DNA from: Chloroflexota bacterium
GTDB lineage: Bacteria > Chloroflexota > UBA6077 > JACCZL01
Direction: 5' to 3'
Length of the DNA: 64,000 nucleotides
NCBI GenBank assembly: GCA_020850535.1
Contig: JADZEM010000068.1
Location: 62,001-126,000 of the forward strand
The translations under genes and the position numbers were made by a program. A model generated the notes under the pieces. The model was not told the origin of the DNA and made no database searches. It saw nothing but the letters and a program-made list of their open reading frames with translations. This document shows positions 1,089 through 58,510 of this stretch, piece by piece (the stretch's first letter is position 1; the number at the start of each line of letters is the position of its first letter).

Positions 1089-1814
1089 TTAGCCGCGGTC
1101 ATGCGCGCCCGGCCAGGGGACGACGAGGCCCCGCGCGCGGGTGGCCACCAGGTCGATGACGCGCTGGTTCCCGGAGCCAGTCCAGGCGCCGGCACGCTCG
1201 GCCAGGGCTTCGACGTAGGGCCCGTCGATCAGAACCTCGATCTCGTCCAGGATGTGACCAATCGCGGGCCGGGCGAGCGCCCGCCGGCGCAGCGCTTCGT
1301 AGGTGCGTCCGGAGTAGCAGACGATGTGCGGGCAGCCCCTGGTTCGGAGTGCTCGCACGAGGGCGAGCAGGCCGTCGGGCTGCAGGAATGGTTCGCCCCC
1401 GAGGATGCTAACGCCATCGCGCCGGTACGCGGCGTCCAGCAAGGCGTCGGCCAGGCGCTCGACCGGCACCAGGACCCCCGCCTCGGCGGGGTGCAGGTGC
1501 GGGACCCAGCACCCGTGGCACGCCAGGTCGCAGCCGCCGAGCAGGACCGATGACCGGCGGCCCGGCCCCTCGACCAGCGAGTCGTGGTAGTAGCCGGATG
1601 TTCGCAGGCAGGACTGACTAGCAAGCTCAGCGTGCGTCGCCGGCGGCAGGTGCCGGAGGCCGGTCGGGCGGGCACACCCCAGATCCTGTCCGGGGCCGAG
1701 CAGGTGCTCGAGCTCCTCACGAGGTGGCCGCCCCAGGCGCTCCGGGTGCTCGACGAGGACCGCGCCGGTACGCTCGTCGATCGTGACGGTCAGGTATGGC
1801 ACGGTCGTCTCCAT
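1089..1814 (-). CDS. Radical SAM protein, NrdG-like activase family
   Basis: A 241-residue protein with the radical SAM cluster motif C-x3-C-x2-C (CDLACHGC, about residue 100) followed by WVPHLHP. A glycine-rich ILGGEPFLQ segment (the GGE motif that contacts S-adenosylmethionine) and a VCYSGRTYE strand follow. This resembles anaerobic ribonucleotide reductase activase and related small radical SAM enzymes that make a 5'-deoxyadenosyl radical. No NrdD-like partner lies nearby; instead the gene belongs to a DUF2997/DUF1257/AAA module, so its substrate is probably something else. The start used is the ATG at 1814 (METTVPYL); a longer version to 1868 is possible but has an unstructured N-terminus. 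Confidence 0.75.
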   Translation of the reverse strand: METTVPYLTVTIDERTGAVLVEHPERLGRPPREELEHLLGPGQDLGCARPTGLRHLPPATHAELASQSCLRTSGYYHDSLVEGPGRRSSVLLGGCDLACHGCWVPHLHPAEAGVLVPVERLADALLDAAYRRDGVSILGGEPFLQPDGLLALVRALRTRGCPHIVCYSGRTYEALRRRALARPAIGHILDEIEVLIDGPYVEALAERAGAWTGSGNQRVIDLVATRARGLVVPWPGAHDRG

Positions 1815-2281
1815 CCATGGCTGGCTCGTCGCGCGGGAGTGCTGCCGGCCGCGGGCCGAGCGTTCCACCCAGCGAGACGATGCGTCCGTTCAGCGCCTCC
1901 ACAGCGCCGGCGCTCTCCGCGTTGCGGTCGGCGGGCGCCATCCCGGTGCCAGGGATGCGCAGCTCGAGCAGAGGGCCGCGCTGCTCCCCCGGCCGCATCG
2001 GCCAGACGGGAGATGACGCCCGGGCAGCGGATCGGGCAGCCCTGGAGCTGCGCCACGCTCCGACGACCCGGTCCGTCGAGCAGCAAGCCGTGGTAGATGC
2101 GGGCGACACGCAGCGCCGGGTCGCCGTCATTCGACGCGGCCGCGGCGAGCGGCCGGGCGCAGTCGACCTCGCGGGCCGGTGGGAGGAGGTCGCCGGCGAG
2201 CGCCGACGCCTCCTCCATTGTCAGTCCTTCCAGGACCAGCTCGCCCGTCGCCGGATCGAGGGTCCAGGCGAGCTCAGTCAC
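1790..2281 (-). pseudogene. Truncated radical SAM paralogue
   Basis: A GTG start at 2281 overlaps the DUF2997 stop (GTGA). The first 85 or so residues look coding and end in ARIYHGLLLDGPGRRSVAQLQ followed by GCPIRCPG. This parallels the neighbouring radical SAM protein, which has YYHDSLVEGPGRRS followed by GGCDLACHGC. After C-P-G the third cysteine and all later radical SAM motifs are missing. The reading frame becomes arginine/alanine-rich and runs into the N-terminus of the downstream gene. I read it as a tandem paralogue truncated or frameshifted just after the second cysteine. A short functional protein with a new C-terminus is less likely but not excluded. Confidence 0.5.
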
Positions 2282-2478
2282 CGTCCCGTCTTCGGCCGAA
2301 CCTGTGGCTGCACCCGCGGTCGGAGGTGGTACTCGGACGTCTGGCGCTCGACGCCGGGCTCGCCCAGCAGCTCCTTCGCCAGTCTGGCGACGTCGTCGCA
2401 GGCCGGGCCGGGAACGCCCGTGACGTGCAGCGTCAGCGCCCCCGTCTCGGGGTCGATGGTGAACTCGATCTCTGGCAT
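2278..2478 (-). CDS. DUF2997 small protein
   Basis: A 66-residue protein (MPEIEFTIDPETGALTLHV...) with the DUF2997 pattern: two short strands carrying a D-x-x-G turn, then G-V-P-G-x-A-C, a helix, and L-G-E-P-G. DUF2997 genes typically sit beside DUF1257 (Ycf35) and a Ycf46-like AAA ATPase, exactly as here. The molecular role of the family is unknown. It lies 14 nt downstream of the DUF1257 gene and overlaps the next reading frame by four bases, so the group is clearly co-expressed. The tail after residue 48 is basic and probably disordered. Confidence 0.8.
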   Translation of the reverse strand: MPEIEFTIDPETGALTLHVTGVPGPACDDVARLAKELLGEPGVERQTSEYHLRPRVQPQVRPKTGR

Positions 2479-2492
2479 GCGCGCCCCCTCGC

Positions 2493-2888
2493 TCAGTAGC
2501 GGACCGCGATCTTGACCACGCTGCCCTCGACCGTGCGGCGGGCGGTGCCGCGGAGGCGGCGGGTGACCGCCTCCACGACGCGCTCGCTGTAGGCCGTGCG
2601 GAGCGCGACAAGGAAACGGCCGCCGTGGAGCACCCGCCGGTCGTACTCGCTCACGATCGGCACGTAGCCGGCCGGCGTCCGGGTGAAGCCCAGGTCGTTG
2701 GAGGCCGGGCCGAGGTGCTGCCGGCGGACGACGAGCTCGGCCGTCTCGGGCCGGCGGTCGCCCTGGTAGCCGTGGAGCGGGAGGGCCTCCCCCTCCTCCA
2801 CCTCGGCGTAGCCCAGGTCGGCCAGCGCGGCCAGCAGCAGCCGCCGGTCTGGGAAGCAGATTTCCTCAAAGACCAAGTACTTGCTCAT
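2493..2888 (-). CDS. DUF1257 (Ycf35-like) protein
   Basis: A 131-residue protein matching DUF1257: it begins MSKYLVFEEICFPDRRLLLAALADLG in two pieces, has a central LHGYQGDRRP segment, and ends with a helix-strand tail (RRLRGTARRTVEGSVVKIAVRY). DUF1257 proteins are chloroplast/cyanobacterial Ycf35 relatives that also occur in phages and mobile elements with DUF2997 and an AAA ATPase. Function is not established. The start overlaps the stop of the upstream HNH gene by four bases. Confidence 0.85.
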   Translation of the reverse strand: MSKYLVFEEICFPDRRLLLAALADLGYAEVEEGEALPLHGYQGDRRPETAELVVRRQHLGPASNDLGFTRTPAGYVPIVSEYDRRVLHGGRFLVALRTAYSERVVEAVTRRLRGTARRTVEGSVVKIAVRY

Positions 2889-3406
2889 GCGGGTGAACCT
2901 CCCAGCCGTTCATGCGGGCAGTACCCGTAATGCCCGCGAGCCAGGTTGCAGTTGTGGCAGAGCAACCTGAACTCATCGCGAGGGAATCCCTGACGTTTCA
3001 GCCACAGGTAGAAGCTCCGTCCTTCGCCCGCTGTGGTGCGGCGATGGTGCCTGCCACCCCCATTGATGTGGTCAATGCCAAGGAACTCGCGAGTCGTCTC
3101 GCCGCAGCACTGGCAGCGGTGGCCGTACGCTGCGAGCACTTCCGTGCGTAGCTGCCCATTGCGGGCCTTGTCGTGCGCCCGCCGCTGTTCCCGAGTTGAG
3201 GCATGCCAGCGCCCATTCGCGAGTGCGGCTCGGGTCCGGTGTTCCGGGTCTTCTCTCCTGCGTCGCCAGTAGTCGCGTATACACGGTATGCACCACCTGG
3301 CGTGTCCGTCAGGCTTACTTCGATCGCGACCGAACTCGTTGACCGCTTTGAGGGCGCCGCACTTGGAGCAGCGCTTCAGCTGGGCAGGACCATCACGTGT
3401 GTCCAT
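2885..3406 (-). CDS. HNH-type zinc-binding endonuclease-like protein
   Basis: A 173-residue protein with two zinc-ribbon-like cysteine pairs at the N-terminus (CSKCG and CIPC, about residues 13-43) and a phage-type HNH region: RCQCCG, then LGIDHINGGGRHHR, then LLCHNCN. The histidine pair in D-H-I-N-G-G-G-x-H-H plus the closing C-x-x-C-N form the beta-beta-alpha metal nuclease fold. It is typical of free-standing HNH nucleases found in phage and plasmid genomes. It is nested between the AAA and DUF1257 genes that usually adjoin each other, so it may be a homing-type insertion. Its overlap with DUF1257 means expression is nevertheless coupled. Confidence 0.75.
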   Translation of the reverse strand: MDTRDGPAQLKRCSKCGALKAVNEFGRDRSKPDGHARWCIPCIRDYWRRRREDPEHRTRAALANGRWHASTREQRRAHDKARNGQLRTEVLAAYGHRCQCCGETTREFLGIDHINGGGRHHRRTTAGEGRSFYLWLKRQGFPRDEFRLLCHNCNLARGHYGYCPHERLGGSPA

Positions 3407-3469: not shown

Positions 3470-5062
3470 TCAGAACTCCATCAGGCGGTCGCCCGTCGCG
3501 GTCGGCTGGCCGCGCACGGCGTCGATCGCCAGGTGCTCGCGCGCCCAGCGGCGCAGCTCCTCGATCTCCTCGCGCTTGACCTCGCTGGTCGGCCGGATGG
3601 CCCGCACCCGCGCCAGCACGTCGGCCGTCACGAGGTCGCGGCCGCCGTCCATGAAGGCGTCCACCAGCGCGCCCTTGACGGCCGCCTCGATCTCGGCGCC
3701 GGAGAAGCCGTCGGCCGCCCCGGCCAGCGCCTCCAGGTCGAACGCCCCGGGCTCGCGCCCCCGCCGGGCGAGGTGGACGCGGAAGATGTCCACGCGGTCC
3801 TCGGGGGTGGGCAGGTCGACGAAGACGACGTGCGAGAAGCGGCCCTGGCGGATCTGCTCGGGGGCGAGCTGGCGCACGTCGTTGGCGGTGGCGAAGACGA
3901 ACACGTCGGCCTGCTCCTGCATCCAGTTCAGGAGGGTGCCGATCGTCCGGGCCGTCTCGCCGGCGTCCGAGCGGGCCGACGACTGGAGCCCGCCGACGCC
4001 CTTCTCGAACTCGGAGAGGCCCAGCACCGCCTTGAGCGTCGTCGCGATCGCCAGCGCCCGGCGGATCGACGTGGCGGCGCTGCCGATGACGCCGCCGCCC
4101 TCGCCCATCACGGCGCCCATGTCGAGGTCGAGCAGGGGCCGGCCGAAGATGCCGGCCGCGATCTTCTTCGCCAGGTCTTTGCCGCAGCCGGGCAGGCCCA
4201 CCAGCAGCACGCCCTTGGCCGGCTCGACGCCGTACGCCCGGGCGGCCGGGGTGAACGTCACGGCCGCCTGCTGGAGCAGCAGGCGCAGGTTGGCGTAGCC
4301 GCCGAGGTGGTCGGCCGGCTCCGGGTGGCTGTAGGCCAGCGCGCCACTGCGGCGGATGACCGCGCGCTTCTCGTCGAGGATGAGCGGCACCGCCTCCGGG
4401 CCGATCCCCCGCCGGGCGATCGCCGCCTTGGCCAGCGCGTTCTCGATCTCGGTCTCGGTGAGCCCGAGCAGCGCCTGGGCGAGCTGCTCGCGGGTGCGGG
4501 CGTCGACCGCCAGCCGCACATCGGGGTGGTCGGCGAGGCGCGCGAGTTGGAGATCGAGGATGCCGGCCACCTCGCGCTCGTCGGGCAGCACCAGGTCGAC
4601 GATCTTCACCTCCTTCTCCAGCTCCGCGAGCTCCGGGAAGGATGGCCCGACGAAGAGGACGGTGACGGGGCGGGCCTTGATCGCCCAGGCGAGCTCGCGC
4701 AGCCGGCGGACGAGCAGCGGCTCTGCTTGCCCGAAGGGCGCAAGGTACGGCCCGAAGTCGGCCAGGACGTAGAGCCCCCGCTCGGCCTGTTCGACGTGCT
4801 CCAGCACCGAGAGCGGGTCGTCGGTGCCCGGGATCGGTCGCTCGCACGGGCCGAGGCCGGGGCCGGCCACCTGGCGCAGGCCGGCCGGGCGCGACCACCA
4901 GAAGAGTCCCTTGGCGGCGTGGCGCTCGAGCCTGGCCACGGCGAGCATCAGGCGGCGGAAGCGGAGCTCCTCGAAGGTGGCAACGGCGAGGAGCGGGTAG
5001 CGCGCGCGGATCAGGACGTCGAGCTCGCCGACGAGCGCGGCGAGCGAGGACGTGTCGATCAT
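3470..5062 (-). CDS. Ycf46-like AAA+ ATPase with substituted Walker motifs
   Basis: A 530-residue protein with the Ycf46 architecture: an N-terminal alpha/beta domain (about 1-200), an EIENALAKAAI linker, the Y-A-N-L-R-L-L-L-Q region, then a C-terminal AAA+ module (about 280-500) with second-region features QIRQGRFSHVVFVDLP and GFSGAEIEAAVKGAL. The P-loop reads GLPGCGKDLAKK, so the usual Ser/Thr after Lys295 is Asp296. Walker B reads AVLGLSEFEKG, so the usual Asp is Ser350 next to Glu351. These changes predict altered or lost Mg-ATP hydrolysis. The start (ATG at 5062) has a GGAGG nine bases upstream. It is the likely motor or scaffold of the DUF1257/DUF2997/radical SAM module. Confidence 0.8.
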   Translation of the reverse strand: MIDTSSLAALVGELDVLIRARYPLLAVATFEELRFRRLMLAVARLERHAAKGLFWWSRPAGLRQVAGPGLGPCERPIPGTDDPLSVLEHVEQAERGLYVLADFGPYLAPFGQAEPLLVRRLRELAWAIKARPVTVLFVGPSFPELAELEKEVKIVDLVLPDEREVAGILDLQLARLADHPDVRLAVDARTREQLAQALLGLTETEIENALAKAAIARRGIGPEAVPLILDEKRAVIRRSGALAYSHPEPADHLGGYANLRLLLQQAAVTFTPAARAYGVEPAKGVLLVGLPGCGKDLAKKIAAGIFGRPLLDLDMGAVMGEGGGVIGSAATSIRRALAIATTLKAVLGLSEFEKGVGGLQSSARSDAGETARTIGTLLNWMQEQADVFVFATANDVRQLAPEQIRQGRFSHVVFVDLPTPEDRVDIFRVHLARRGREPGAFDLEALAGAADGFSGAEIEAAVKGALVDAFMDGGRDLVTADVLARVRAIRPTSEVKREEIEELRRWAREHLAIDAVRGQPTATGDRLMEF

Positions 5063-5144: not shown

Positions 5145-6434
5145 TCAGAGCTCGAGGGCGGCCATCCGGTGCGGCTCGGCGAGCGACCGGGCGTCGGCGT
5201 AGCAGAGCGCGACGATGTCCCCGAGCACCTGGTCGATCGGGCCGGGGTCGCGCTTGCGCGGGCCGGTCGGCCGGCTGGCGAGGTCCTCCAGCTCGCCGAG
5301 CAGCAGCTCCAGCTGCTGGTCGGACTGCCAGTTCATGAGGCGGAACCAGCGCGCCAGCTCGCGCGCCTTCTTCGCCGAGGCCCCGTGGAGCGCCCGGTGC
5401 TTCTGGAGCGAGGCGCGGATGGCGGTCGCCGACTCGTAGACGGCCGCGTGGAGCTGCCGCGCCCCCTCCTCCAGCGGGCTCAGCGACTCCTGGAGGCGCT
5501 CTCGGGCGGCCTCGAGCTTGAGGTGGCGCAGGCGCTCCTTCACCTCGGCTTCCTTCCGCCGATCCTCCGCTTCTGCCTGAAGCCGGCGGCGGATGCGCTC
5601 CTCCTCGGCCCAGAGCTCCTCTTGCACGAGCTTCTCGCGCGCCCGCTGCCGGCGCTGCTCGAGCTGCGCCGCTGCCTCGACCGCCTCGAGCTGGCGGCGC
5701 TCCTCGCGGGCCCGCCGCTGCTCGGCCAGCATCTCGCTGCCGAGCAGCACGACCCCGACGCGGTAGCGCAGCGTCAGCCGGTCCTGGAGGTCATCGGGTG
5801 CGGGGACGGCGGCCAGCACGCCCTTTGTGATGACGTCCTGGAAGCCCTCCGGGACGAGGTGGCCGGTCGCCTCGAGCCGGCGGGCCGAGTCGCGCGCCAG
5901 CTGGAGGATCGTCTCGACGACCTCCTCCCGCACGGCGTCGTACCGGTCGAGGACGGACGCCTTGGCCGCGTCGAGCGCCTGCTGGGCCGTGCGGAAGTCC
6001 CGTTCGAACGCCTCGAAGGCCGCCCAGGGCACCCAGCGGTAGGACGGCGTCTCGAATAGCGTCTCGGTCAGCGTGAAGCGGTAGGAGTAGCGGTGGAGCG
6101 CCGCGTGGGCCCGGGCGGCCGGGCGCAGCAGCGGCAGGCGGTAGCGGTCCGGCAGGAGCCCGCAGCGGGGCGGGCGGAAGGCCAGGCCGGAGCCGCGCGG
6201 CAGGCTCACCCCGAGCGCGTGCCAGTCGAGCCGCCGGTCGAGCAGCCCGAAGCCGCGCGCGTCGACGTTGATGAACGCGCCCTCGTCTTCGAGCGCGGAC
6301 AGGTCGAACGGCAGCCGCTCGACGTCGGCGACCTGGACGCCGAGGCGCCCGGCGGCGCGCTCGGCGCGGGCCGCGACGCCGTCGACGGGCAGCTCCGCCG
6401 GGTCGGCGGTCGGGCGGGGTGCGGTCTGGACCAT
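5145..6434 (-). CDS. Coiled-coil protein of unknown function upstream of the AAA ATPase
   Basis: A 429-residue protein. The N-terminal third has a folded look (LPFDLSALEDEGAFINVDAR and the aromatic YSYRFTLTETLFETPSYRWVP region). Residues about 130-360 are strongly charged heptad-like coiled coil rich in Arg, Glu and Ala. The C-terminus (ARWFRLMNW...IDQVLGDIVALCY) looks helical. The overall shape resembles phage DUF3150-type proteins that accompany AAA ATPases, but I cannot confirm that match. The ATG at 6434 was preferred over the GTG at 6443 because AGGAGG lies eight bases ahead of it and overlaps the GTG. The gene is 82 nt upstream of the AAA gene in the same transcript. Confidence 0.65.
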   Translation of the reverse strand: MVQTAPRPTADPAELPVDGVAARAERAAGRLGVQVADVERLPFDLSALEDEGAFINVDARGFGLLDRRLDWHALGVSLPRGSGLAFRPPRCGLLPDRYRLPLLRPAARAHAALHRYSYRFTLTETLFETPSYRWVPWAAFEAFERDFRTAQQALDAAKASVLDRYDAVREEVVETILQLARDSARRLEATGHLVPEGFQDVITKGVLAAVPAPDDLQDRLTLRYRVGVVLLGSEMLAEQRRAREERRQLEAVEAAAQLEQRRQRAREKLVQEELWAEEERIRRRLQAEAEDRRKEAEVKERLRHLKLEAARERLQESLSPLEEGARQLHAAVYESATAIRASLQKHRALHGASAKKARELARWFRLMNWQSDQQLELLLGELEDLASRPTGPRKRDPGPIDQVLGDIVALCYADARSLAEPHRMAALEL

Positions 6435-6495
6435 CGGCAGCACCTCCTCTGGGGGAGCGGTCGGCCGGGCGATGGATGCCGCCCGGCCGTGCCGC

Positions 6496-7041
6496 TCACG
6501 CGGACCGGCGCGCGGCGGGGGTGTAGAGTCCCCGCTCGCGGAGGCTGACGTGGCCCGACCGGCCGATGACGAGGTGGTCGAGCAGCTCCACGCCGAGGAG
6601 GTCGCCCGCCCGCGCCGCCTCGGCGGTGAGGCGGACGTCGTCGGGCGACGGGGTCGGGTCGCCGCTGGGGTGGTTGTGGACCAGGATCACCGCGGCCGCG
6701 CCGCGGGCGACGGCCTCGCGGTAGCAGTCGGCCAGGCGGATGATGGTCGCGTTCAGCCCGCCCTGGTAGACGAGGCAGGTGGCGATCACGTGGTTCTTCG
6801 CGTCGAGCAGCACCGCGCGCAGCTGCTCCTGGTGAAGCCCTGACAGCTCCGGCCCGAGGTAGGCGGCCAGGTCGGCCGGGTTGCGGACGGTCGGCCCGTC
6901 CGACGCGGGGACGATGCCCTCGACCTCGTAGCGTCGGGCCAGCTCCGCGAGCAGACGAAGGTTCTCGCGGACCAGGTGCAGCAGCGTCGCCGCCTCGGGC
7001 GGCAGCAGGCTGACCTGGCGAGCGTCGGGCGTGGTCGTCAC
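6496..7041 (-). CDS. RadC-type JAB/MPN domain protein
   Basis: A 181-residue protein carrying only the catalytic domain of the RadC family: VLLDAKNHVIATCLVYQGGLN, then the JAMM metal motif HNHPSGDPTPSPDD (two histidines and a distal aspartate), then LLDHLVIGRSGHVSLRERG. The N-terminal helix-hairpin-helix region of chromosomal RadC is shortened. Plasmids and integrative elements commonly carry such stand-alone copies, with no proven repair role. The GTG at 7041 overlaps the upstream stop (GTGA) and removes an arginine-rich leader; it is preferred over a start at 7077. Confidence 0.85.
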   Translation of the reverse strand: MTTTPDARQVSLLPPEAATLLHLVRENLRLLAELARRYEVEGIVPASDGPTVRNPADLAAYLGPELSGLHQEQLRAVLLDAKNHVIATCLVYQGGLNATIIRLADCYREAVARGAAAVILVHNHPSGDPTPSPDDVRLTAEAARAGDLLGVELLDHLVIGRSGHVSLRERGLYTPAARRSA

Positions 7042-7322
7042 GCCGGGCCGTCCTCGGCGACGGGCGCGACGTCCCACCGGACGGGCTCGCGGTGGCGGTC
7101 GCAGAGCCGACGGTCCAGGCGGGCGCGGAACTCACACGCCCGCTCACCGTCGTCGACTGCGTAGAGGTCGCTGGCCCGGCGGGCCAGCGCGTCGAAGGCG
7201 CAGCGATCGTAGAACTGGCCGGCGAAGGAGGCGAAGGCCAGGGCCAGCTGGAACGGCGTCCTGGTCCGGACGGCCAGTGCCAGCCGGCGCTCGGGCGGCA
7301 GGGTCTCGGAGAGGCTGGGCAT
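7038..7322 (-). CDS. Small protein of unknown function
   Basis: A 94-residue protein starting MPSLSETLPPERRLALAVRT. It is predicted to be mostly helical, with an aromatic-rich middle (FQLALAFASFAGQFYDRCAF) and an acidic tail. It matches no family I recognise. It is supported as a gene by its tight fit: its stop overlaps the GTG of the JAB gene, and the frame keeps the GC-rich third positions typical of the neighbours. It probably belongs to the replication/repair part of the minus-strand operon with SSB and JAB. Confidence 0.6.
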   Translation of the reverse strand: MPSLSETLPPERRLALAVRTRTPFQLALAFASFAGQFYDRCAFDALARRASDLYAVDDGERACEFRARLDRRLCDRHREPVRWDVAPVAEDGPA

Positions 7323-17636: not shown

Positions 17637-17936
17637 ATGGCCGGGGCGGCGCCACGGAGGCGGGAGGCGGCGAGCGTACTCCGCATCGCGGTGGGGCCGG
17701 CTGCGTCCCGCGCCGGTCGATCCACCGCCCCCGCTCGACCGCCGAGCGCGCTGGGCCGGGCCGACGCCGTGCGGACGGCCCGTGCCAGCGGCCCCGCGTC
17801 GGCTCCGCTCTGGGCGGCGACGCGGGGCACGTGGTTGGTGGGGGAAAGGCCGGCCGGTTCGTCCCGCCGCGGCACCGTCCCCCGTACCTCCCTGCTGCAT
17901 GACCGCCGTCTGGTCGCCGGGGGGGTGGGCCGATGA
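17637..17936 (+). CDS. Small protein leading the Tad operon
   Basis: A 99-residue basic protein (MAGAAPRRREAASVLRIAVG...). Support is contextual: AAGGGGGAG just before the ATG, GC-rich third positions, and an ATGA overlap with the CpaB-like gene at its end. Composition is Ala/Arg/Pro-rich and no fold is evident, so it might instead be a leader peptide or a non-coding transcript leader. Confidence 0.45.
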   Translation: MAGAAPRRREAASVLRIAVGPAASRAGRSTAPARPPSALGRADAVRTARASGPASAPLWAATRGTWLVGERPAGSSRRGTVPRTSLLHDRRLVAGGVGR

Positions 17937-18628
17937 GTGTCGGGGTGCTGACGCCGGCCCGGGCGGTACGCCGGCCGTGGCGCGCCGATCCGCGGGCGCT
18001 GCTCGGGGCCGGGCTGGTCCTCGTCGGGATCGTCGGGTACGTGGCCGTGGCCGGACTCACCGCCGACACGCGGGCGGTCGTCGTCGCGGCCCGCGACCGG
18101 CCGGCCGGCGCCCGGCTCGCGCCCGGCGACCTGGCGGTTGCCCGGGTCCGGGTCGACGACGCGATCTACGCCGCGGCGATCCGTGGCGACGAGCTGGAGT
18201 CGCTGGCCGGCCGGACGCTGCCGACGCCGCTTTACGCCGGCCAGGTCCTCGCGCGGGCCCAGGTCGTCGACCGCCCGCCCCCGGCCCCGGGCCAGGTGCT
18301 GATGACGGTCGCGGTCCCGCCCGAGCGGGCCGTCGGCGGCCAGCTCCGACCGGGCGACCTCGTCCGGGTGCTGGCGACCGAGAACGGGCCGGGCGGACGG
18401 GCGGTCGTGGCCGTGCCCCGGGCGACGATCGTCGAGCTGGGGCGCGAGTCCCTGCCGGGGGTAGCGACGGGGCGAGGCGACGGGCCGCCGCTCGCCTGGG
18501 CGACGCTGCTGCTCGGCGAGGCCGAGGCGGTGGGGCTCGCCCAGGCCAAGAACACCGGCCAGCTCGACCTGGCGCTCCTGCCGCCGGAGGCCGAGCCACC
18601 CGGCGAGGCGGGAGGCGGGTCCCGATGA
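17933..18628 (+). CDS. cpaB: SAF-domain pilus assembly protein, CpaB-like
   Basis: A 231-residue protein with a basic N-terminus, one membrane segment (ALLGAGLVLVGIVGYVAVAGL, residues about 22-43) and a periplasmic SAF domain (VVVAARDRPAGARLAPGDL through YAGQVLARAQVV). A second strand-rich half (GQVLMTVAVPPERAVGG and RPGDLVRVLATE) matches the RcpC/CpaB layout. CpaB/RcpC is the inner part of the Tad secretion channel or its stabiliser. It begins the conserved cpaB-cpaE-cpaF-tadB-tadC order. Confidence 0.85.
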   Translation: MSVGVLTPARAVRRPWRADPRALLGAGLVLVGIVGYVAVAGLTADTRAVVVAARDRPAGARLAPGDLAVARVRVDDAIYAAAIRGDELESLAGRTLPTPLYAGQVLARAQVVDRPPPAPGQVLMTVAVPPERAVGGQLRPGDLVRVLATENGPGGRAVVAVPRATIVELGRESLPGVATGRGDGPPLAWATLLLGEAEAVGLAQAKNTGQLDLALLPPEAEPPGEAGGGSR

Positions 18629-18638
18629 GGGTGCACCA

Positions 18639-19973
18639 GTGAGCGCGACGCTCCGGCTCCGACCGGCTCGGCTCGCGATCGGGCTCGGCAACCCGGCCGC
18701 CGAGGCGGCGCTGCTCCCGCTGCTGGCGGCCGCCGACGACCTGGAGGTCGCGGCGCGCTGCCTGGGGGCTGAGGAGCTGCTGGCGGCCGCCCGCGACCCC
18801 GCGATCGACGCCGTGCTCGTCTCGCTCGACCTGCACCGCCTGACGTCGGAGCTGCTCGCCGAGCTGGCGAACGATCGGCCGTCGCTCGTCGTGCTCGCCC
18901 CGGTCGGGGCGCCGCCGGACCTGCCGGGCCTGGTGGTGCCGGCCGAGGCCGAGCCGGCCGAGGTCCTCCAGGCGCTCCGCCTGGCCGTCGGCGGCCCGGT
19001 GGTCTCGGTCGCGGCGGCGCGTGGTCCCGCCTCGCGCGAGGAGCCGCCGCCCGCCCCGGGCTCCGAGGTGGACGACACTCGCGTGAGCGGGCTGGTCGCG
19101 GTCGCCGGCCCGCCGGGTGCCCCGGGCCGGACGACGGTCGCCCTCGGCGTGGCGGCGGGGCTGGGCACGATCGCGCCGACCGTGCTCGTCGAGGCGGACG
19201 CGACCGCCCCGAGCGTCGCGGCGTACCTCGACCTCGACCCGTCCCGCAACGCCTTCATGCTGGCCCACGCGGACCCCGTGACGCCCCAGGACTGGGAGGA
19301 GACCCTGGCCCAGGAGCTCCAGCCGCTCGACCGCGCCCGCAGCCCGCACGCGGTCGTGCTGTGCGGGGTGCCGAAGCCGGAGATGCGCGGGGCCTTGCGT
19401 CCGGCCTTCGTCGCGCAACTGCTCGACGAGCTGGGCCGCCGCTACCGCTATGTGGTAGTGGACCTCGGCCCGGACCCGCTCGGGACGGAACGGTCGCTCG
19501 GTGTGCCGACGCTCGACCGGGCCGAGGCGATCCTGGTCGTCACAGGGGCCGAGCTGGTCGGGCTGCATCGTGCGCGCGGGCTGCTCGCGACGCTCCGGGC
19601 TCGGCCGGGGCCCGATAGACTGGCGCTCGTCGTCAACCGCCACGACCCGAAGCGTCACCACGCGCGGCGGGAGATCGAGTGGGCGCTGGAGACCCCGGCC
19701 GCGGCGATGATCCCCTACGACTGGGGCGGCGTGCAGCGGGCGGCCGCCGCCCAGCGCCCGGTCGTGCTCGAGGGTCGCGGCGGGGCCGCCCAGGCGCTGC
19801 TGGAGCTGGCCGGCCGGGTCCACGGTCGGCGGCTGCGGCTGCCGCCGGATCCGGAGCGGCCGGCTCGGTGGGCGTGGGCGGCACGCCGGCCGGGCTGGCC
19901 CAAGCGGCGCCCGCGGCCGGCCCCGGCTCCAGCCTCGGCTCCGGCGCCTGAGAGGGCATCAGATGGTCGCTGA
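18639..19973 (+). CDS. cpaE: CpaE-like ParA-type ATPase with an atypical P-loop
   Basis: A 444-residue protein: an N-terminal receiver-like alpha/beta domain (1-130) without clear phosphorylation residues, a linker, then a ParA/MinD-fold domain (about 155-400). The deviant Walker A, normally K-G-G-x-G-K-T, reads AGPPGAPGRTTVALG: the first lysine is absent and the second is Arg. The 'switch' strand is TVLVEADATAPSVAAYLD. CpaE/TadZ localises the Tad machine at the cell pole. The Lys-to-Arg change is common in high-GC Tad loci, so low ATPase activity is plausible. GTG start at 18639; it overlaps CpaF by 11 nt. Confidence 0.8.
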   Translation: MSATLRLRPARLAIGLGNPAAEAALLPLLAAADDLEVAARCLGAEELLAAARDPAIDAVLVSLDLHRLTSELLAELANDRPSLVVLAPVGAPPDLPGLVVPAEAEPAEVLQALRLAVGGPVVSVAAARGPASREEPPPAPGSEVDDTRVSGLVAVAGPPGAPGRTTVALGVAAGLGTIAPTVLVEADATAPSVAAYLDLDPSRNAFMLAHADPVTPQDWEETLAQELQPLDRARSPHAVVLCGVPKPEMRGALRPAFVAQLLDELGRRYRYVVVDLGPDPLGTERSLGVPTLDRAEAILVVTGAELVGLHRARGLLATLRARPGPDRLALVVNRHDPKRHHARREIEWALETPAAAMIPYDWGGVQRAAAAQRPVVLEGRGGAAQALLELAGRVHGRRLRLPPDPERPARWAWAARRPGWPKRRPRPAPAPASAPAPERASDGR

Positions 19974-21342
19974 GCGGCGCGGCGGGGTGGCGGGTGGCCG
20001 GCCGGTCGGCCCGGAGCGCGAGGCCGAGCGGGCGCTGCGCGACGCGGTCCGCGCGGCCCTGGACGGGCGCGTGCGCCAGGGGACGCTCGACGAGGGACGC
20101 ATGCTGCGGCCGGGTCCCGAGGAGGAGGCCGAGGTCCGCAAGGAGATCCGGCGGCTGATCGCCGAGCACCAGCGAGTGGCCCGCACCTCCGGGGGCGTCG
20201 TCCTGGCCGACGAGGCCGCGACCGAGGCGCGGCTGGTCGACGCGCTGCTGAAGCTCGGCATCCTCCAGCCGCTGCTCGACGACGGGTCGATCGAGGAGAT
20301 CGAGGTCAACGGGCCGAGCCGGGTGTTCGTCGTCCGCGACGGGCGGACGGAGCTGCTGCCGGAGCTGTACTTCGACGACGACGAGGAGCTGCGGCGGCTG
20401 GTGAAGCGGATCGTCGGGCCGCTCGGGCGGCGGCTGGACGAGGCCTCGCCGATGGTCGACGTCCGTCTGCCGGACGGCTCGCGCCTGAACGCGGTCATCC
20501 CGCCGGCCGCGGAGTTCACGGCGGTCACGATCCGCAAGTTCCTGCTGCGAGCCCAGTCGCTCGACCAGCTGGTGCGGCTCGGGACGCTGCCGGCGGCCGT
20601 CGCCCAGTTCCTGGATGCGGCCGTCCGGGGCGGCGTCAACATCCTGGTGAGCGGGCCGACCGGGAGCGGCAAGACGACCCTCCTCAACGCCCTCGGGGCC
20701 GCCATCGTCGGGCTGAACGAGCGGATCGTGGTGGTCGAGGAGACGGCCGAGCTGAAGCTCTCGAAGCTGCCGAACGCGGTCTCGCTCCAGGGGCGCGCGG
20801 CGAACGTCGAGGGGGCCGGCGAGATCACGATCCGGGATCTCGTCCGCAACGCGCTGCGGATGCGGCCGACCCGGATCGTCGTCGGCGAGGTCCGCGGGGC
20901 CGAGGCGCTCGACATGCTCGACGCGATGAACACCGGCCACGACGGCAGCCTGACGACGATCCACGGCAACAGCCCTAGAGACGCGCTGGCCCGCCTGCGG
21001 GTCCTGGCGCTGCGGGCCGAGGAGCGGGTCCCGGCCGAGGCGCTCGGCGAGATGATCGCCTCGACGGTCGGGTTGGTCGTCCAGCTCCGCCTGGACCCCC
21101 GGAGCGGCGAGCGGCGGGTCTCGGGCGTGTTCGAGGTCACCGGGCTCGAGGGCGCGACGATCGTCGGCCAGGACCTGTGGACGATCGACGACGGGGGGCG
21201 CCTGGCGTGGACCGGCCGCCAGCCCCGCTGCCTGGAGCGGATCGCGGCGCGGGGAATCGACTACACCCCGCCCCCGGCGGTCGCCCGCCCCCGGCGAGGT
21301 GGCGCGGCGGCCGGGGCGCGCGCCGGCGAGGGCGGCCGGTGA
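19963..21342 (+). CDS. cpaF: CpaF/TadA secretion ATPase
   Basis: A 459-residue type II/IV secretion ATPase. The N-terminal helical domain is followed by SIEEIEVNGPSRVFV and a catalytic core with Walker A GPTGSGKTTLLNALGA, the Asp box VVVEETAELKL, Walker B RIVVGEVRGAEALDML, and the His box GHDGSLTTIHGNS. It is the hexameric motor that powers Tad pilus assembly at the inner membrane. All catalytic motifs are intact, in contrast to the CpaE-like neighbour. The C-terminus carries a short basic tail beyond the usual end. Confidence 0.95.
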   Translation: MVAERRGGVAGGRPVGPEREAERALRDAVRAALDGRVRQGTLDEGRMLRPGPEEEAEVRKEIRRLIAEHQRVARTSGGVVLADEAATEARLVDALLKLGILQPLLDDGSIEEIEVNGPSRVFVVRDGRTELLPELYFDDDEELRRLVKRIVGPLGRRLDEASPMVDVRLPDGSRLNAVIPPAAEFTAVTIRKFLLRAQSLDQLVRLGTLPAAVAQFLDAAVRGGVNILVSGPTGSGKTTLLNALGAAIVGLNERIVVVEETAELKLSKLPNAVSLQGRAANVEGAGEITIRDLVRNALRMRPTRIVVGEVRGAEALDMLDAMNTGHDGSLTTIHGNSPRDALARLRVLALRAEERVPAEALGEMIASTVGLVVQLRLDPRSGERRVSGVFEVTGLEGATIVGQDLWTIDDGGRLAWTGRQPRCLERIAARGIDYTPPPAVARPRRGGAAAGARAGEGGR

Positions 21343-21461
21343 GTCGGATCGGCAAACGGTCGCCCGTGCCCCCGGGGTGATCCGGGAGCAGGCCGGGAGC
21401 ACGGGCTCATAAGGTGGGAGCGGTGGTCACGTCCGAGGGGGCGTGCGGAGGAGACGCGACG

Positions 21462-22322
21462 ATGGAGCGGCCGCTGATCACGCTGCTGCTGGCCCTGTCG
21501 TTCGGGGCCGGCCTGGGGCTGCTCTACGGCGGGCTCGTCGACCCGCGCCCGCCGCGACCCGGCCCGGGCCCGGTTGCCCGGCTGCTGGCGCGGGCCGGAC
21601 TTGCCGACGTGTCGCCGCGCGAGTTCGTGCTGGTCTCGACGCTGGCCGGACTGGCGGCCGCAGTCGCCGCCCAGGTGGCCCTCGGCTGGACGGCCGTCTC
21701 GGTGCTGGCCGGGGTGCTGGGCACCGCCGTGCCGCTCGGCTACTACCTCCGTCGCCAGGAGGTCCGTCGCGCCCGGGTCCAGGCGGCGCTGGTCGACGCC
21801 CTGGCCCAGCTCCGCGACACGGTGCGAGCGGGCCTGAGTGTCGAGGAGGGCGTGGCGGCCCTCGCCCGGAGCGGGCCGCAGGCCCTGCGCGCCGAGTTCG
21901 CCCGCCTGGCCCAGGACGCGCGGCTCGACGGCTTCGCGGCGGGGTTGGGCCGGATGCGGGAGCGGCTGGCCGACCCGGTCTTCGATATGGCGGCGGTCGC
22001 GCTCCAGACGAACGACCGCCTGGGCGGCCGGCAGGTCGTGCCGGTCCTCGATCGGCTGGCCCAGGCCAGCCGCGGCGAACTGCGGGTCCAGGAGGAGCTG
22101 CGGGCCTACCGGGCGCGGACGGTGCTCTCGGCGCGGGTCGTGGCGGCCGTGCCGGTCGTCCTGCTGGTGGCCATCCGCTGGATCAATCCGGAGTACCTGG
22201 CCGTGTTCGACGCGCCCGCGGGCCAGGCGGTGCTCGCGCTGTGCGCGGCGAGCGTCGCGGTCGGCTACGGTGCGATGCTCTGGACGGCGCGCACGCCGGG
22301 CCAGCCGCGGGTGCTCCGATGA
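21462..22322 (+). CDS. tadB: TadB-like inner-membrane platform protein
   Basis: A 286-residue protein starting MERPLITLLLALSFGAGLGL, with GGAGGAG upstream of the ATG. Two N-terminal membrane segments, a cytoplasmic T2SF domain (VDALAQLRDTVRAGLSVEEGV through LGGRQVVPVLDRLAQ), and two C-terminal membrane segments (VVAAVPVVLLVAIRWI and AVLALCAASVAVGYGAML) give the standard TadB topology. It anchors the pilus motor in the membrane together with TadC. The gap of about 119 nt after CpaF contains no gene. Confidence 0.9.
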   Translation: MERPLITLLLALSFGAGLGLLYGGLVDPRPPRPGPGPVARLLARAGLADVSPREFVLVSTLAGLAAAVAAQVALGWTAVSVLAGVLGTAVPLGYYLRRQEVRRARVQAALVDALAQLRDTVRAGLSVEEGVAALARSGPQALRAEFARLAQDARLDGFAAGLGRMRERLADPVFDMAAVALQTNDRLGGRQVVPVLDRLAQASRGELRVQEELRAYRARTVLSARVVAAVPVVLLVAIRWINPEYLAVFDAPAGQAVLALCAASVAVGYGAMLWTARTPGQPRVLR

Positions 22323-22332
22323 GGGCGCACCC

Positions 22333-23388
22333 GTGAACGACCCCTTCGGGCTCCCAGACCTCGGCTGGCTGGCCGACCCTGCCGCGCGGGCCGCGGCCTG
22401 GGCAGTGCTGGTCGAGCGGCTCGGCCGGTTCGACCCGACGGCGGTCCGGCCGGGCGGGCTGCTCTGGCCGGCCCTGGTCGGGCTCGGGTTGTACCTGCTG
22501 CTGGTGGCCCAGCCGATCGGGCGGCCGAAGCCGGACCTGGTCGAGCGGCTGCGGCGGCTCGACGTGGACGAGCGGGTCCGCTGGGAGCTCGGGGCCGAGC
22601 GACTGCCGCTGTTCCGGTCGCGGCTGCTCGAGGCCCTCCTGCGGCCGGTCCTCGACGACGTCGGGGCGCTGCTGCGGAGCCTGCTCGGCCGGCTCGGGCT
22701 GGCCGGCGGCCGCGACCTGGAGGCCAGGCTGGCTGTCGCCCGACCGGGCGTGACGGCTTCCCAGCACTACGGCGAGAAGCTGGCGGTCGCGCTGGTGGCC
22801 GGTGCGTTCGTCCCGCTCGGGGCCTCTCTCGGGGTGCTCCCGTTCGGCTGGGCGACGCCGTGGATCGCGGCGCTGGTGGCGGGACTCGGCTTTGCCGCAC
22901 CGGACTGGGAGCTGGAGCGGCGGCTGCGGACCCTGCGGGCCGCCTGCGCCCACGAGCTGCCGGCCCTGGTGGACTTGCTCGCGATCGCGACCTCGGCCGG
23001 CTACGCCGTCGAGCAGGGGCTGGAGCTGGTCGTCCGCGAGGGGACGGGAGCGGCGGCTCGCGAGCTGCGGCGGGCGACCCGCGAGGCGGCGCTCGGGCAG
23101 GCCCCGCTGGTCGAGGCGCTCGAGGCGGCCGCGCGGCGGGTCGGGGCACCCGAGCTCTCGCAGCTGGTGACCACGCTGCGGGCCGCCCAGGAGCAGGGCC
23201 TGCCGCTCGGGCCGGCGCTCGCGGCCCAGGCCGAGGTGCTCCGCGACCGACGGCGGCTGGCGGTGCTCGAGGAGGGCGGCAAGGCGAACGTCCGGATGGT
23301 GATCCCGGTCGCCGTGTTCATCCTCCCGGTGCTGTTCATCATCCTGCTCGTCCCGGCGGCGGTGTCGCTGCTGGGGTTCGGGGGATAG
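22333..23388 (+). CDS. tadC: TadC-like inner-membrane platform protein
   Basis: A 351-residue protein, GTG start at 22333, ten bases after TadB. One membrane segment near residue 40-60 (LVGLGLYLLLVAQPI), two adjacent central segments (ALVAGAFVPLGASLGVLPF and WIAALVAGLGFAAPDW), the T2SF cytoplasmic domain (AHELPALVDLLAIATSAGYAVEQGL in part), and a C-terminal segment (VAVFILPVLFIILLVPAAVS). It pairs with TadB as the platform of the Tad pilus. Confidence 0.9.
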   Translation: MNDPFGLPDLGWLADPAARAAAWAVLVERLGRFDPTAVRPGGLLWPALVGLGLYLLLVAQPIGRPKPDLVERLRRLDVDERVRWELGAERLPLFRSRLLEALLRPVLDDVGALLRSLLGRLGLAGGRDLEARLAVARPGVTASQHYGEKLAVALVAGAFVPLGASLGVLPFGWATPWIAALVAGLGFAAPDWELERRLRTLRAACAHELPALVDLLAIATSAGYAVEQGLELVVREGTGAAARELRRATREAALGQAPLVEALEAAARRVGAPELSQLVTTLRAAQEQGLPLGPALAAQAEVLRDRRRLAVLEEGGKANVRMVIPVAVFILPVLFIILLVPAAVSLLGFGG

Positions 23389-23484
23389 GGAGGTGGGGAC
23401 GACAGGACGGCGAGCGCGAGGCGGGGGCGGCGCCGGGGCGGCGCCGAGGTCAGTGACGCGGCGGGCAGAGCGCGGGAGGCAGAG

Positions 23485-23727
23485 GTGTCCGAGCTTCGCT
23501 GGTGGATGGACTGCGTCTGGCTGATGGTGGCGGCCCGGCTCCCGGCCGGGCGGCGGTTGGCGACGGCCGGGCTGGCCGGCCAGTCGCTGGTCGAGTACGC
23601 GCTGGTGATCGGGGTGATCGCCCTGCTGGCGATCGCCGGACTGACGGCCTTCGGCAACGGGATCAGTCAGCTCTTCAGCTCGATCCTCAGTCGAGTGACC
23701 GGGGCCGTCGGCGGGGGCGGGGGATAG
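23485..23727 (+). CDS. flp: Flp-family type IVb pilin
   Basis: An 80-residue prepilin. A basic leader of about 30 residues ends in G-Q-S-L-V-E-Y-A, the prepilin peptidase site with the conserved Glu at position +5 region, followed by the hydrophobic helix LVIGVIALLAIAGLTAFGNG and a short glycine-rich end. It is the major subunit of the Tad/Flp pilus. GTG start with GGGAGG seven bases upstream. The cognate peptidase is probably the gene at 30766. Confidence 0.9.
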   Translation: MSELRWWMDCVWLMVAARLPAGRRLATAGLAGQSLVEYALVIGVIALLAIAGLTAFGNGISQLFSSILSRVTGAVGGGGG

Positions 23728-23729
23728 TG

Positions 23730-24236
23730 ATGCGCGCCCGGGCGAGCGCCGACGCGGACGGGGCGACCGCCGGCGTCGCCGTGCCGCGGCCCCGGCCCTC
23801 CGGCCGCGAGGAGCGGCGACCCCGCCGGCTGCGACGACAGGTCGAGCGGGGCCAGGCGCTGGTTGAGACGGCCCTGGCGTTCCCGATCCTGGTCTTGGCG
23901 GCCTACGCGATGGTCCAGGTGGTCCTCTACGTCCACGCGCGGACCGTCGTGGTCGCCGCCGTCCAGGAAGGCGCCCGGGCGGCCGTGACGGGCGGCGACG
24001 GGATGGGGCGAGCGCGCGAGGTGCTCCAGGCCGGCTTGGGCCCGAGCGGCCGTCGGCTGTTCGTGAACACCCGCATCGAGCTCGGCGCTACGGGCGGCGA
24101 GGCCTGGGTCGTGTCCGCCGACGGGACCTGGCCGGTCCACGTCGGGCTGACCCGCATCGAGGTGCCGCTCCGCGCCGAGGCGCGCGTCAGCGGCGAGTTC
24201 TTCCGCGGCGGCCCGCCGGGAGGGCCGGGGCGATGA
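23730..24236 (+). CDS. TadE-like pseudopilin
   Basis: A 168-residue protein with a long basic N-terminus (about 45 residues), then GQALVETALAFPILVLAAYAM, the TadE prepilin-like cleavage region and transmembrane helix. A C-terminal extracytoplasmic domain contains FVNTRIELGAT and VGLTRIEVPLRAEARV. It is processed like Flp and helps initiate pilus assembly. The ATG at 23730 follows the pilin stop by two bases. Confidence 0.85.
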   Translation: MRARASADADGATAGVAVPRPRPSGREERRPRRLRRQVERGQALVETALAFPILVLAAYAMVQVVLYVHARTVVVAAVQEGARAAVTGGDGMGRAREVLQAGLGPSGRRLFVNTRIELGATGGEAWVVSADGTWPVHVGLTRIEVPLRAEARVSGEFFRGGPPGGPGR

Positions 24237-24661
24237 GGCGCCTCGAGCGCGCCCAGGCCCTCGTCGAGGTGGCATTCGCCGTGCCCGTCGTCGTCATGCT
24301 CGTCGTCGGGGCGACCGCGATCGCGACGGTGGGGCTCGTCCAGATGGCCTCCGAGGCCTCAGCCCGCGAGGCGGCCCGGGCGGCGGCGTCGGCGAAGGAC
24401 GCCGCCGAGGCGGTCGCGTGGGGCCGCCAGAGCGGCCAGGAGGTAGCGAGAGGCTACGGGCTCGCCAACGCGCAGGTCGACGTCACGGTGCGCGACTTCC
24501 CGCGCCCGAACCAGCCGCGCACCGGGGCCGGCGAGGCCCGGGCGACGGTCCGCGCCGACGTGTCGGTCCTGCGGTGGGGACGGGTCGCGGTCTCGGCCGA
24601 GCACGTCGAGCCGATCGAGCCGTACCGAGCGCGCTGGATCGGGGGGGCGGGAGTCCCGTGA
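24233..24661 (+). CDS. TadE/TadF-like pseudopilin
   Basis: A 142-residue protein with a short basic start (MRRLERAQALVEVAFAVPVVV) in which A-Q-A-L-V-E is the prepilin-like processing region, then one transmembrane helix. The extracytoplasmic part ends in VLRWGRVAVSAEHVEPIEPY. The A-S-E-A-S-A-R-E-A-A-R-A-A-A helix is typical of TadE/F proteins. It overlaps both neighbours by four bases (ATGA and GTGA). Confidence 0.85.
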   Translation: MRRLERAQALVEVAFAVPVVVMLVVGATAIATVGLVQMASEASAREAARAAASAKDAAEAVAWGRQSGQEVARGYGLANAQVDVTVRDFPRPNQPRTGAGEARATVRADVSVLRWGRVAVSAEHVEPIEPYRARWIGGAGVP

Positions 24662-25107
24662 GGCACCGTGCGGCGGCGCGGCGCGGCGTGCGGGGCCAGG
24701 CCGTGGCCTGGCTGGCGATCATGCTGCCGCTGTTCCTGGCCGTGGTCGGGCTGGCCGTCGACGGGGTGGTCGTCCTGGGGGCGCGCCGCGAGCTCCAGGA
24801 TATCGCCGACGGCGCGGCGCGAGCCGGGGCGACGGCGGTCGACGAGCAGCGCTACCGCGAGCAGGGGACGGTGGAGCTGGTCGAGGGGACCGCGCGCCAG
24901 CGGGCCGAGCAGGCGCTCGCTCGGGTCGAGTCGCGTCGGCTGGAAAGCCCTCCAGCTGGCGACGTCCGAGCGAGCCGAACGGAGGTCGCGGTGAGCGTGC
25001 GCGGGCGGGCCCGGCTCGCGTTCATCCGCATCGTCGGGATCAGGACCGCTGAGGTGCGTGCATCGGCAAGGGCGCGGCCGTTCCCCGGCATCACGCAGGC
25101 GGAGTGA
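24658..25107 (+). CDS. TadG-like protein
   Basis: A 149-residue protein starting at GTG 24658 (overlap GTGA). After a short basic leader comes GQAVAWLAIMLPLFLAVVGL, the hydrophobic segment of TadG/Tad-like proteins. Next is VVVLGARRELQDIADGAARAGA, the conserved region after the membrane segment (R-R-x-L-Q-x-x-A-D-x-A-A). It is much shorter than full TadG and lacks a VWA domain. It is likely the third pseudopilin-type protein of the pilus. Confidence 0.8.
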   Translation: MRHRAAARRGVRGQAVAWLAIMLPLFLAVVGLAVDGVVVLGARRELQDIADGAARAGATAVDEQRYREQGTVELVEGTARQRAEQALARVESRRLESPPAGDVRASRTEVAVSVRGRARLAFIRIVGIRTAEVRASARARPFPGITQAE

Positions 25108-25191
25108 GGGGGCTCTCGAACCACCACGGGCGTGGCACCGCGGCAAGAGGTCGCGACCTGGGCCAGCTCGTGGCGAGACATGGAGGAGGCG

Positions 25192-25752
25192 ATGAAGAGC
25201 AAACTGCCGAGGGCACTGGTCCTGGCACTGCTCGGGGCGGCGATGGTCGTCGGCCAGCTGGTGCTCGGGGCGAGCGCCGTCGTCGCCCAGGCGGCCGACG
25301 ACGAGGGGCCGCTGATGCAGCGGCTGCGCGAGCTGCGCCGCCCGGATGGCTCGGTCGATGCGCCCTACGGGACGGGCCAGCCGGAGGAGCTAGCAATCCA
25401 GACCGCCTACGAGCAGTACCTTGCCGTGACGGTCGATGCCCTAGCCCGCACCGATGCGAGCCGCATGGAAGAGGTTGCGGCCGGCCGACGGCTCGAGCGG
25501 ACGCGGGCGTACATCAACCAGTTGCAGGCCTCCGGGCGCCTGGCCGAGGTCACGGTGGAGTCGATAGCGCCGGTCGCCTACGTGGAGCTGACCGGTACGG
25601 AAGCAATCATCTACGTCCAGTATCGCCAGTGGCATCGCGAGATCGACGCCGTGACTGGGGCCCTCATGGCGGAGCAAGCGGGCGAGATCCTGGACACCTA
25701 CTACCTCCTGGAGCGGAGCGATGCCGCGTGGAAAGTCACGGACAGCGCCTGA
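25192..25752 (+). CDS. Secreted protein with ARC6/IMS-like C-terminal domain
   Basis: A 186-residue protein. The ATG at 25192 follows GGAGGAGGCG and gives a clean signal peptide (ALVLALLGAAMVVGQLVL, then AQA-like cleavage near residue 35). The mature part starts with a charged segment, and its C-terminal about 110 residues (IQTAYEQYLAVTVDALARTD, RLERTRAYINQLQASG, ILDTYYLLERSDAAWKVTD) resemble the small alpha-beta domain found at the end of ARC6-type and related secreted proteins. That match is from memory of the pattern only. It probably acts outside the membrane as part of the Tad apparatus. Confidence 0.6.
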   Translation: MKSKLPRALVLALLGAAMVVGQLVLGASAVVAQAADDEGPLMQRLRELRRPDGSVDAPYGTGQPEELAIQTAYEQYLAVTVDALARTDASRMEEVAAGRRLERTRAYINQLQASGRLAEVTVESIAPVAYVELTGTEAIIYVQYRQWHREIDAVTGALMAEQAGEILDTYYLLERSDAAWKVTDSA

Positions 25753-26521: not shown

Positions 26522-26598
26522 CGGGCAGACCGGCGACGACGGCGGGTGGCTGTCGCGAATGACGGTCCCGCTCGAGGGGCCGAGCGAGGAGGACGGCG

Positions 26599-30696: not shown

Positions 30697-30765
30697 TGGT
30701 CACCTGGTGGGCCGGGATCGGCAGGTTAGGAACCCTGCGATGCACCTGAAGGTGGGGCGACCTTG

Positions 30766-38929: not shown

Positions 38930-38941
38930 AGGGGCGACGAC

Positions 38942-43808: not shown

Positions 43809-43887
43809 GCCGCCTTGATCCGGGACGCCCCGCGCCCGCTGCCCTCGCCTGGACCACAGCACGACCGAGGAGTGAGGAGTGTCGAAG

Positions 43888-44703: not shown

Positions 44704-44745
44704 TCCGCCACCGAAGGTGGGCGGTTGCGCCGTGCGGTGAACGCG

Positions 44746-56923: not shown

Positions 56924-56934
56924 GGGGCGCCGCG

Positions 56935-58056: not shown

Positions 58057-58204
58057 CGGGCGGCGTGGTGGGAGGAGCGAGGGAACGGCGCCCAAAGGGC
58101 ACGACGAGCGGGGGTGGGCGCCCCGCGCGAGCACGACCCAACGGCCCGGCGAGGCGGGGCGGCCCGGGCCAGCCAGACCAGATCACGAGCCCAGGAGGCG
58201 GAGC

Positions 58205-58498: not shown

Positions 58499-58510
58499 GG
58501 GGAGGCAACC

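Follow-up and report, generated by a model that had tools for sequence, protein, structure and literature searches.

A reciprocal exchange of Walker A and Walker B residues in a lineage of Ycf46-like AAA proteins, usually accompanied by a PRTRC-type module

What becomes of a AAA ATPase when its Walker A Ser/Thr and its Walker B Asp have both been replaced? According to PMC9599734, a 2022 analysis, these two residues are strictly conserved in P-loop NTPases, where a short hydrogen bond connects them, and catalysis is proposed to include transfer of a proton from the hydroxyl to the carboxylate. A Ycf46-like protein encoded in 64,000 nucleotides of Chloroflexota DNA (the window, meaning the whole stretch analysed) carries Asp and Ser at these positions. 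The original prediction had noticed GCGKD (Asp296) and LSE (Ser350-Glu351), and had proposed that the active site is non-canonical or, alternatively, that the protein is an inactive scaffold. Reading the codons of the minus-strand ORF at 3470-5062 bears out both motifs: Asp296 is GAC (bases 4177-4175), Ser350 is TCC (4015-4013) and Glu351 is GAG (4012-4010), with Gly348 at 4019-4021.

The window protein and its predicted fold

3470..5062, minus strand: Ycf46-like AAA protein, 530 aa (ORF and profile matches)
4175..4198, minus strand: Walker A GLPGCGKD, residues 289-296, Asp296 where Ser/Thr is canonical
4166..4168, minus strand: Lys299, one helical turn past Walker Lys295; canonical Ala, Cys or Ser
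4091..4105, minus strand: GEGGG, residues 320-324; pore loop 1 longer by Gly-Gly-Gly 322-324
4010..4027, minus strand: Walker B VLGLSE, Ser350 for Asp, Glu351 kept, Gly348 for Trp
3881..3883, minus strand: sensor 1 Asn394, Asn in all 137 aligned homologues
3839..3850, minus strand: Arg405 and Arg408, arginine-finger positions in the second region of homology, both Arg in all 137

The protein matches the Pfam AAA model PF00004 (1.3e-13), and phrog_8638 spans its residues 9-509 (1.9e-92). Similarity to the Ycf46-like family runs the full length of the protein, beyond the AAA domain alone: the top plasmid homologues show about 32-38% identity at 92-97% query coverage, and the alignment with a phage model named ycf46 spans 558 columns (TM 0.85). 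In keeping with AAA proteins generally, we take Asn394 to be sensor 1 and Arg405 and Arg408 to be arginine fingers. Like classical AAA proteins, the window protein has a AAA domain, an Asn at sensor 1 and both arginines; GCGKD and LGLSE fit neither the classical Walker A pattern, [G/A]xxxxGK[S/T], nor Walker B, hhhhDE.

An AlphaFold2 model of the single chain, built with 73 sequences, has a mean pLDDT of 88.7 and a pTM of 0.81, with Gly322-324 below 50; an earlier run with 5 sequences gave pLDDT 53.9 and was discarded. Among the structural relatives ranked by Foldseek, a ranking that leaves room for other folds, the top PDB entries are tandem p97/Cdc48 structures, which cover residues 2-525 at Z 24-26 and rmsd 5-9; the closest single AAA domains, from Vps4 and p97 D2, align over approximately 240-512 with rmsd 2.5-2.9 angstrom. 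As modelled, the window protein resembles a p97/Cdc48-shaped tandem AAA protein whose first domain has no P-loop. The N-terminal half is AAA-like and contains no P-loop in its sequence, and the second module is therefore the only possible ATP site.

One exchanged lineage among Ycf46-like proteins

The homologues come from genome contigs (5 loci), from genomes at the level of the class (6 of 29), from the phylum of the window genome (11 of 201 and 16 of 400 genomes), from the Acidobacteria-type phylum to which the genome of locus L011 belongs (71 of 297 genomes, part of the 71 being read), and from 780 plasmid records, 72 phage records and viral contigs; in the plasmid and phage records, motifs were read for eight regions. 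After rows shorter than 300 aa (10 of them) and identical or contained rows had been left out, the alignment held 137 distinct rows. Lys-Asp and Ser-Glu occur together in 29 of these, and the remaining 108 combine Lys-Ser/Thr with an acidic residue and Glu (Lys-Ser with Asp-Glu in 102, Lys-Thr with Asp-Glu in 5, Lys-Ser with Glu-Glu in one). No row among the 137 carries just one of the two changes. The substitutions are reciprocal, the Walker A Ser/Thr having become Asp and the Walker B Asp having become Ser, and co-occurrence of the pair among Ycf46 proteins, which the original prediction had proposed as a check, is thereby complete. Their Walker residues set the swapped rows apart from the whole of the other 108, which makes them a variant lineage rather than ordinary members of the Ycf46-like family. 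The single Glu-Glu row, L205, is a viral protein of canonical type (AAA frame from 4968) in which Glu replaces the first Walker B Asp.

The 29 swapped rows comprise 12 of a Chloroflexota type and 17 of an Acidobacteria-type group, 16 of the latter being mutually close. In trees of 89 and of 137 rows, made by a quick method with the trait columns masked, they fall on one side of a single branch (SH-aLRT 100), so that one origin is enough; by the same token the 29 rows may share one event and are not independent replicates. Supports of just 46 and 35 on the neighbouring branches leave the sister group unnamed by these trees. In the plasmid and phage collections no match attains 60% identity (best plasmid match 37.5%), and all eight plasmid and phage regions read are canonical. 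Three scans of viral contigs with swapped-lineage queries gave no swapped relative. Canonical Ycf46-like proteins are frequent there, with 118 of 189 candidate stretches confirmed (L127-L205).

Could the pair be local drift, or an error in the window assembly? The window genome is assembled as a 227-contig draft, which leaves some opening for this explanation, but the identical pair stands in 29 different sequences drawn from numerous assemblies and is written with varied synonymous codons, so that we give it practically no weight. Asp296 is encoded by GAC in 19 rows and GAT in 10; Ser350 draws on both serine codon families, AGY in 19 rows and TCN in 10 (AGC 12, AGT 7, TCC 6, TCG 2, TCA 1, TCT 1). 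Rows with ordinary motifs are only about 28-41% identical to the window protein, and all the close homologues that were read are swapped, contrary to what drift would have left behind. Four P-loops of other AAA proteins from the window genome (six loci), a small control, read GK[ST] with DE.

dN/dS was estimated for ten pairs. The values for seven swapped pairs are 0.207, 0.160, 0.094, 0.136, 0.028, 0.030 and 0.021, the last three being rough, with dS above 1.5; dS was saturated in an eighth swapped pair, and the two canonical pairs came out at 0.149 and 0.330. With a mean identity of 0.80, the AAA core varies less among swapped rows than the N half (0.62) or the lid (0.63). Codon variety, low dN/dS and a AAA core that is the best-conserved part of the protein together favor a site under selection.

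Further changes, none of them in the original prediction, accompany the exchange, whose reciprocal nature it had also missed. Lys299 is found in 29 of 29 swapped rows (Ala in 86, Cys in 11 and Ser in 6 of the 108 canonical rows), and Gly348 likewise in 29 of 29, the canonical residue being Trp in 89 of 108. Position 330 is Ala in 28 swapped rows and Ser in one, against Glu in 108 of 108 canonical rows. Gly-Gly-Gly 322-324, placed in pore loop 1 by alignment with Cdc48, is present in 28 of 29 swapped rows (one is without the stretch); none of the 108 canonical rows has it. The Asp that follows GRF in 106 of 108 canonical rows is missing from all 29 swapped rows. Lys295, Glu351, Asn394, Arg405 and Arg408 are invariant across all 137 rows, swapped and canonical. 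The earlier statement that the AAA fold is otherwise well preserved needs correction, since changes have also reached pore loop 1 and the vicinity of the Walker B strand.

What the exchanged site may do

The fixed swap, purifying selection and the five invariant residues support a non-canonical active site better than an inactive scaffold, so that the original prediction is borne out in part. We lean, if only slightly, toward a site that would still bind and hydrolyze ATP with the exchanged pair. What was observed is the exchange and its conservation, the changes beside it, a fold model, the gene neighbors and an association across genomes; hydrolysis, residue contacts, ring assembly, a client and any link to ubiquitin-like conjugates are inferred from these. 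One lineage would have rebuilt its sole ATP site so that an acid and a hydroxyl still face each other with their positions exchanged. Asp296 might contact the metal, or be balanced by Lys299, with Ser350 as its hydrogen-bond partner, and Glu351, Asn394, Arg405 and Arg408 would act as in other AAA proteins. The small-to-large change at 299 and the large-to-small change at 348 suggest that Lys299 fills the space of Trp348; the replacements of Ala299 by Lys and of Trp348 by Gly would probably let the lysine lie beside the new Asp296. Pore loop 1 is the part of a AAA protein that engages its client, and the longer, Gly-rich form suggests an altered grip. The protein may work with CC432, DUF1257, DUF2997 and radical-SAM proteins, its cassette neighbors, on mobile elements.

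Several of the same residues admit other explanations. Loss of Glu330 and of the Asp after GRF could equally signal a lost or altered ATPase cycle, and an Asp adjoining the phosphate-binding lysine could repel ATP. A nucleotide-gated scaffold, with ATP or ADP bound, perhaps without Mg, as a conformational switch and with hydrolysis extremely slow or absent, is a real though rather unlikely alternative. As reported in PMC9599734, Walker B Asp-to-Asn mutants keep NTP binding and lose activated hydrolysis; Ser350 is likewise without a carboxylate, and the absence of Glu330 and of the post-GRF Asp would also suit such a switch. The invariant Glu351, Asn394 and both arginines in 29 of 29 swapped rows would, however, be unexpected in a protein that does not hydrolyze ATP.

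Quite improbable, to our minds, is a purely structural pseudo-ATPase, in which Asp296 would pair with Lys299, Lys295 or both, closing the site and leaving the ring as a passive scaffold. An internal ion pair is possible, and Lys299 and Gly348, both uncommon in canonical rows, do accompany Asp296 in 29 of 29 rows. Yet this reading sits badly with the retention of the P-loop glycines, of Lys295 and Glu351 and of both arginines, and with a AAA core better conserved than any other part of the protein; nor was a canonical paralog recognized that might drive a mixed ring. Searching the 21 swapped genomes with the canonical alignment at E<=1e-40 found 32 places, all swapped copies or apparent partial copies, the partial places G518:C28, G029:C58 and G655:C6 lying outside the reading of both motifs; no canonical Ycf46-like place was recognized in these genomes at that threshold. 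The swapped protein is therefore not obviously the silent partner of a canonical one.

If the exchanged pair does work, then either the site accepts a wider range of geometries than had been supposed or catalysis can take a different route; a natural exchanged lineage bears directly on the proposal of proton transfer from hydroxyl to carboxylate. No account of the exchange turned up in the open literature covered on Ycf46, DUF1257/DUF2997, Walker variants and PRTRC, with subscription papers mostly beyond that coverage.

The cassette, the ubiquitin-like module and known systems

1089..1868, minus strand: NrdG-like radical-SAM gene (PF13353 1.9e-26, PF04055 1.6e-7); 26 of 31 swapped loci
2278..2478, minus strand: DUF2997 gene (PF11211 3.8e-6); 27 of 31 swapped loci
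2493..2888, minus strand: DUF1257 gene (PF06868 1.8e-7); 27 of 31 swapped loci
2885..3406, minus strand: HNH / endonuclease VII-like gene between the AAA and DUF1257 genes (phrog_1035 3.8e-15)
5145..6443, minus strand: CC432 coiled-coil partner gene; 28 of 31 swapped loci by iterated profile
6496..7077, minus strand: RadC-family JAB-domain gene, a backbone neighbor of the cassette (PF04002 9e-37)

The gene order CC432, AAA, DUF1257, DUF2997, radical SAM is common to both swapped groups. By iterated profiles, on the same strand and within 6.5 kb, the 96 canonical loci have CC432 in 19 (a count that may take in unrelated coiled coils), DUF1257 in 39, DUF2997 in 37 and radical SAM in 13; several of the swapped loci lacking a neighbor lie at contig ends. 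Of the 31 swapped loci, 8 have the RadC-family JAB-domain gene as a neighbor; of the 96 canonical ones, none does. PMC4284462 places DUF2997, DUF1257 (ycf35) and fed7 in one cluster, in PMC5940233 the ycf genes are handled as a family of conserved hypothetical genes, and papers that mention ycf46 are mostly plastid genome surveys.

CC432 was considered as a partner specific to the swap and rejected: in a one-pass profile search, full-length relatives adjoin the canonical viral loci L140 (1.5e-48) and L131 (1.6e-46), and CC432 therefore does not explain the exchange. Pfam gave no match for 14 of 15 CC432 members and one weak match to Phage_Mu_Gam (0.0091), and the best values in a PDB profile search, 0.011 and 0.072, were treated as noise. 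The CC432 C-terminus reads ALE[LIV] in each of the 15 rows aligned, which gives the tail the look of a recognition signal. After DUF2997, at 1717-2281 on the minus strand, the window holds the start of a first radical-SAM copy whose frame is broken past the cysteine region; the intact gene at 1089-1868 is a second copy.

Elsewhere in the window, three runs of plus-strand genes are seen. Flp/Tad-type pilus genes (CpaB, a T2SSE ATPase, T2SSF, a prepilin peptidase) with an FtsK-domain protein lie at 17933-31251. At 35354-46647, large unknown proteins, a protein with two HATPase domains and a PAPS-reductase-domain protein form one run with the look of a defense-type island. Transfer-like mobile-element genes, among them FtsK/TraG-type ATPases, a lytic transglycosylase and a second CHC2/Toprim primase, occupy 48289-63638.

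Left of the window edge (position 62001), the same contig encodes a ubiquitin-like module beside a sliding-clamp gene:

C68:56217-57422: ThiF (PF00899 4.5e-15)
C68:57067-57702: JAB (TIGR03735 2.4e-11)
C68:57699-58436: E2 (PF14460 1.5e-16)
C68:58348-59211: unknown gene between E2 and Prok_Ub
C68:59208-59615: Prok_Ub (PF14454 5.3e-14)
C68:60302-61465: DnaN-like clamp (TIGR00663 1.8e-64)

Prok_Ub, E2, JAB and ThiF lie 2.4-5.8 kb from the edge on the same strand (L206:12478-18466). Against curated NCBIfam cut-offs, PRTRC_C scores above (48.5 vs 45.95), and PRTRC_A, PRTRC_B and ThiF score below. In the Acidobacteria-type group, a JAB-ThiF fusion and an E2-like protein adjoin the swapped cassette (L088); in Chloroflexota-type genomes the module is farther away, and among seven extended stretches of that type E1 was found in L206, L207, L208, L210, L211 and L212 (part) and not in L209. 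Profiles found ThiF at 16, JAB at 15 and E2 at 13 of 31 swapped loci, and ThiF at 1, JAB at 0 and E2 at 0 of 96 canonical loci, the canonical flanks being mostly only 5 kb.

A genome-level search with no flank limit (E<=1e-12) found the E1-like PRTRC ThiF in 16 of 21 swapped genomes and in 0 of 30 chosen canonical genomes, six from the window's phylum and the first 24 non-swapped ones listed from the Acidobacteria-type phylum, their canonical motif being judged from a score gap where no locus had been fetched (Fisher p 2.8e-9, relatedness ignored). ThiF had no match in five swapped genomes (G238, G029, G016, G013, G201). Copy numbers of the swapped gene and of ThiF agree in several genomes (3/3 in G577 and G655; 2/2 in G631, G545, G585 and G081). 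Across the window's phylum at large, ThiF occurs in 18 of 201 genomes, four of the 18 swapped. Because the swapped genomes are mutually related, the association speaks of co-travel, not of a physical link: the swapped AAA protein rides on mobile elements, usually with a PRTRC-type ubiquitin-like conjugation module as fellow traveler. That an ATP-hydrolyzing, exchanged-pair P-loop ATPase serves there as a Cdc48-like remodeler of PRTRC ubiquitin-like conjugation is a speculative reading of these sequences, and probably wrong in at least some part. If true, it would mean that hydrolysis needs no Ser/Thr hydroxyl at the Walker A position. The function of the p97-shaped Ycf46-like machine was not found in the open literature searched, and the link to a ubiquitin-like tagging module offers a concrete place to seek the client of such a bacterial machine.

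Among known systems, the IetA anti-phage ATPase is similar in its AAA part only (PADLOC IetA 3e-17). Identity as IetA was rejected, with a score of 55.5 bits to NF042959 against an equivalog cut-off of 510, and since the canonical L019 matches IetA better (8.2e-28), the window match reflects general AAA similarity. With p97/Cdc48, NVL/Rix7, Afg2/Drg1 and Vps4 the window protein has in common the predicted fold, the sensor Asn and the arginine positions; it differs from classical AAA proteins in its approximately 16-24% identity, its P-loop-less first module, its swapped Mg-site residues and three additional Gly in pore loop 1. PRTRC systems include Prok_Ub, Prok-E2_D, JAB and ThiF, and the window contig has all four side by side, but the AAA cassette is not among the PRTRC families matched. 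Such systems are similar to operons with E1, E2, JAB and Ub-like proteins that Iyer et al. 2006 (PMC1779556) describe as sporadic and partly mobile, in a main text that does not use the term AAA. The nearest relatives are the Ycf46-like AAA proteins of plasmids, phages and chromosomes (PHROG 8638), which share full-length similarity, tandem architecture and often the same DUF1257 (Ycf35), DUF2997 and radical-SAM neighbors, and whose 108 canonical rows all keep Ser/Thr with an acid (Asp in 107, Glu in one) and Glu330, and have no GGG.
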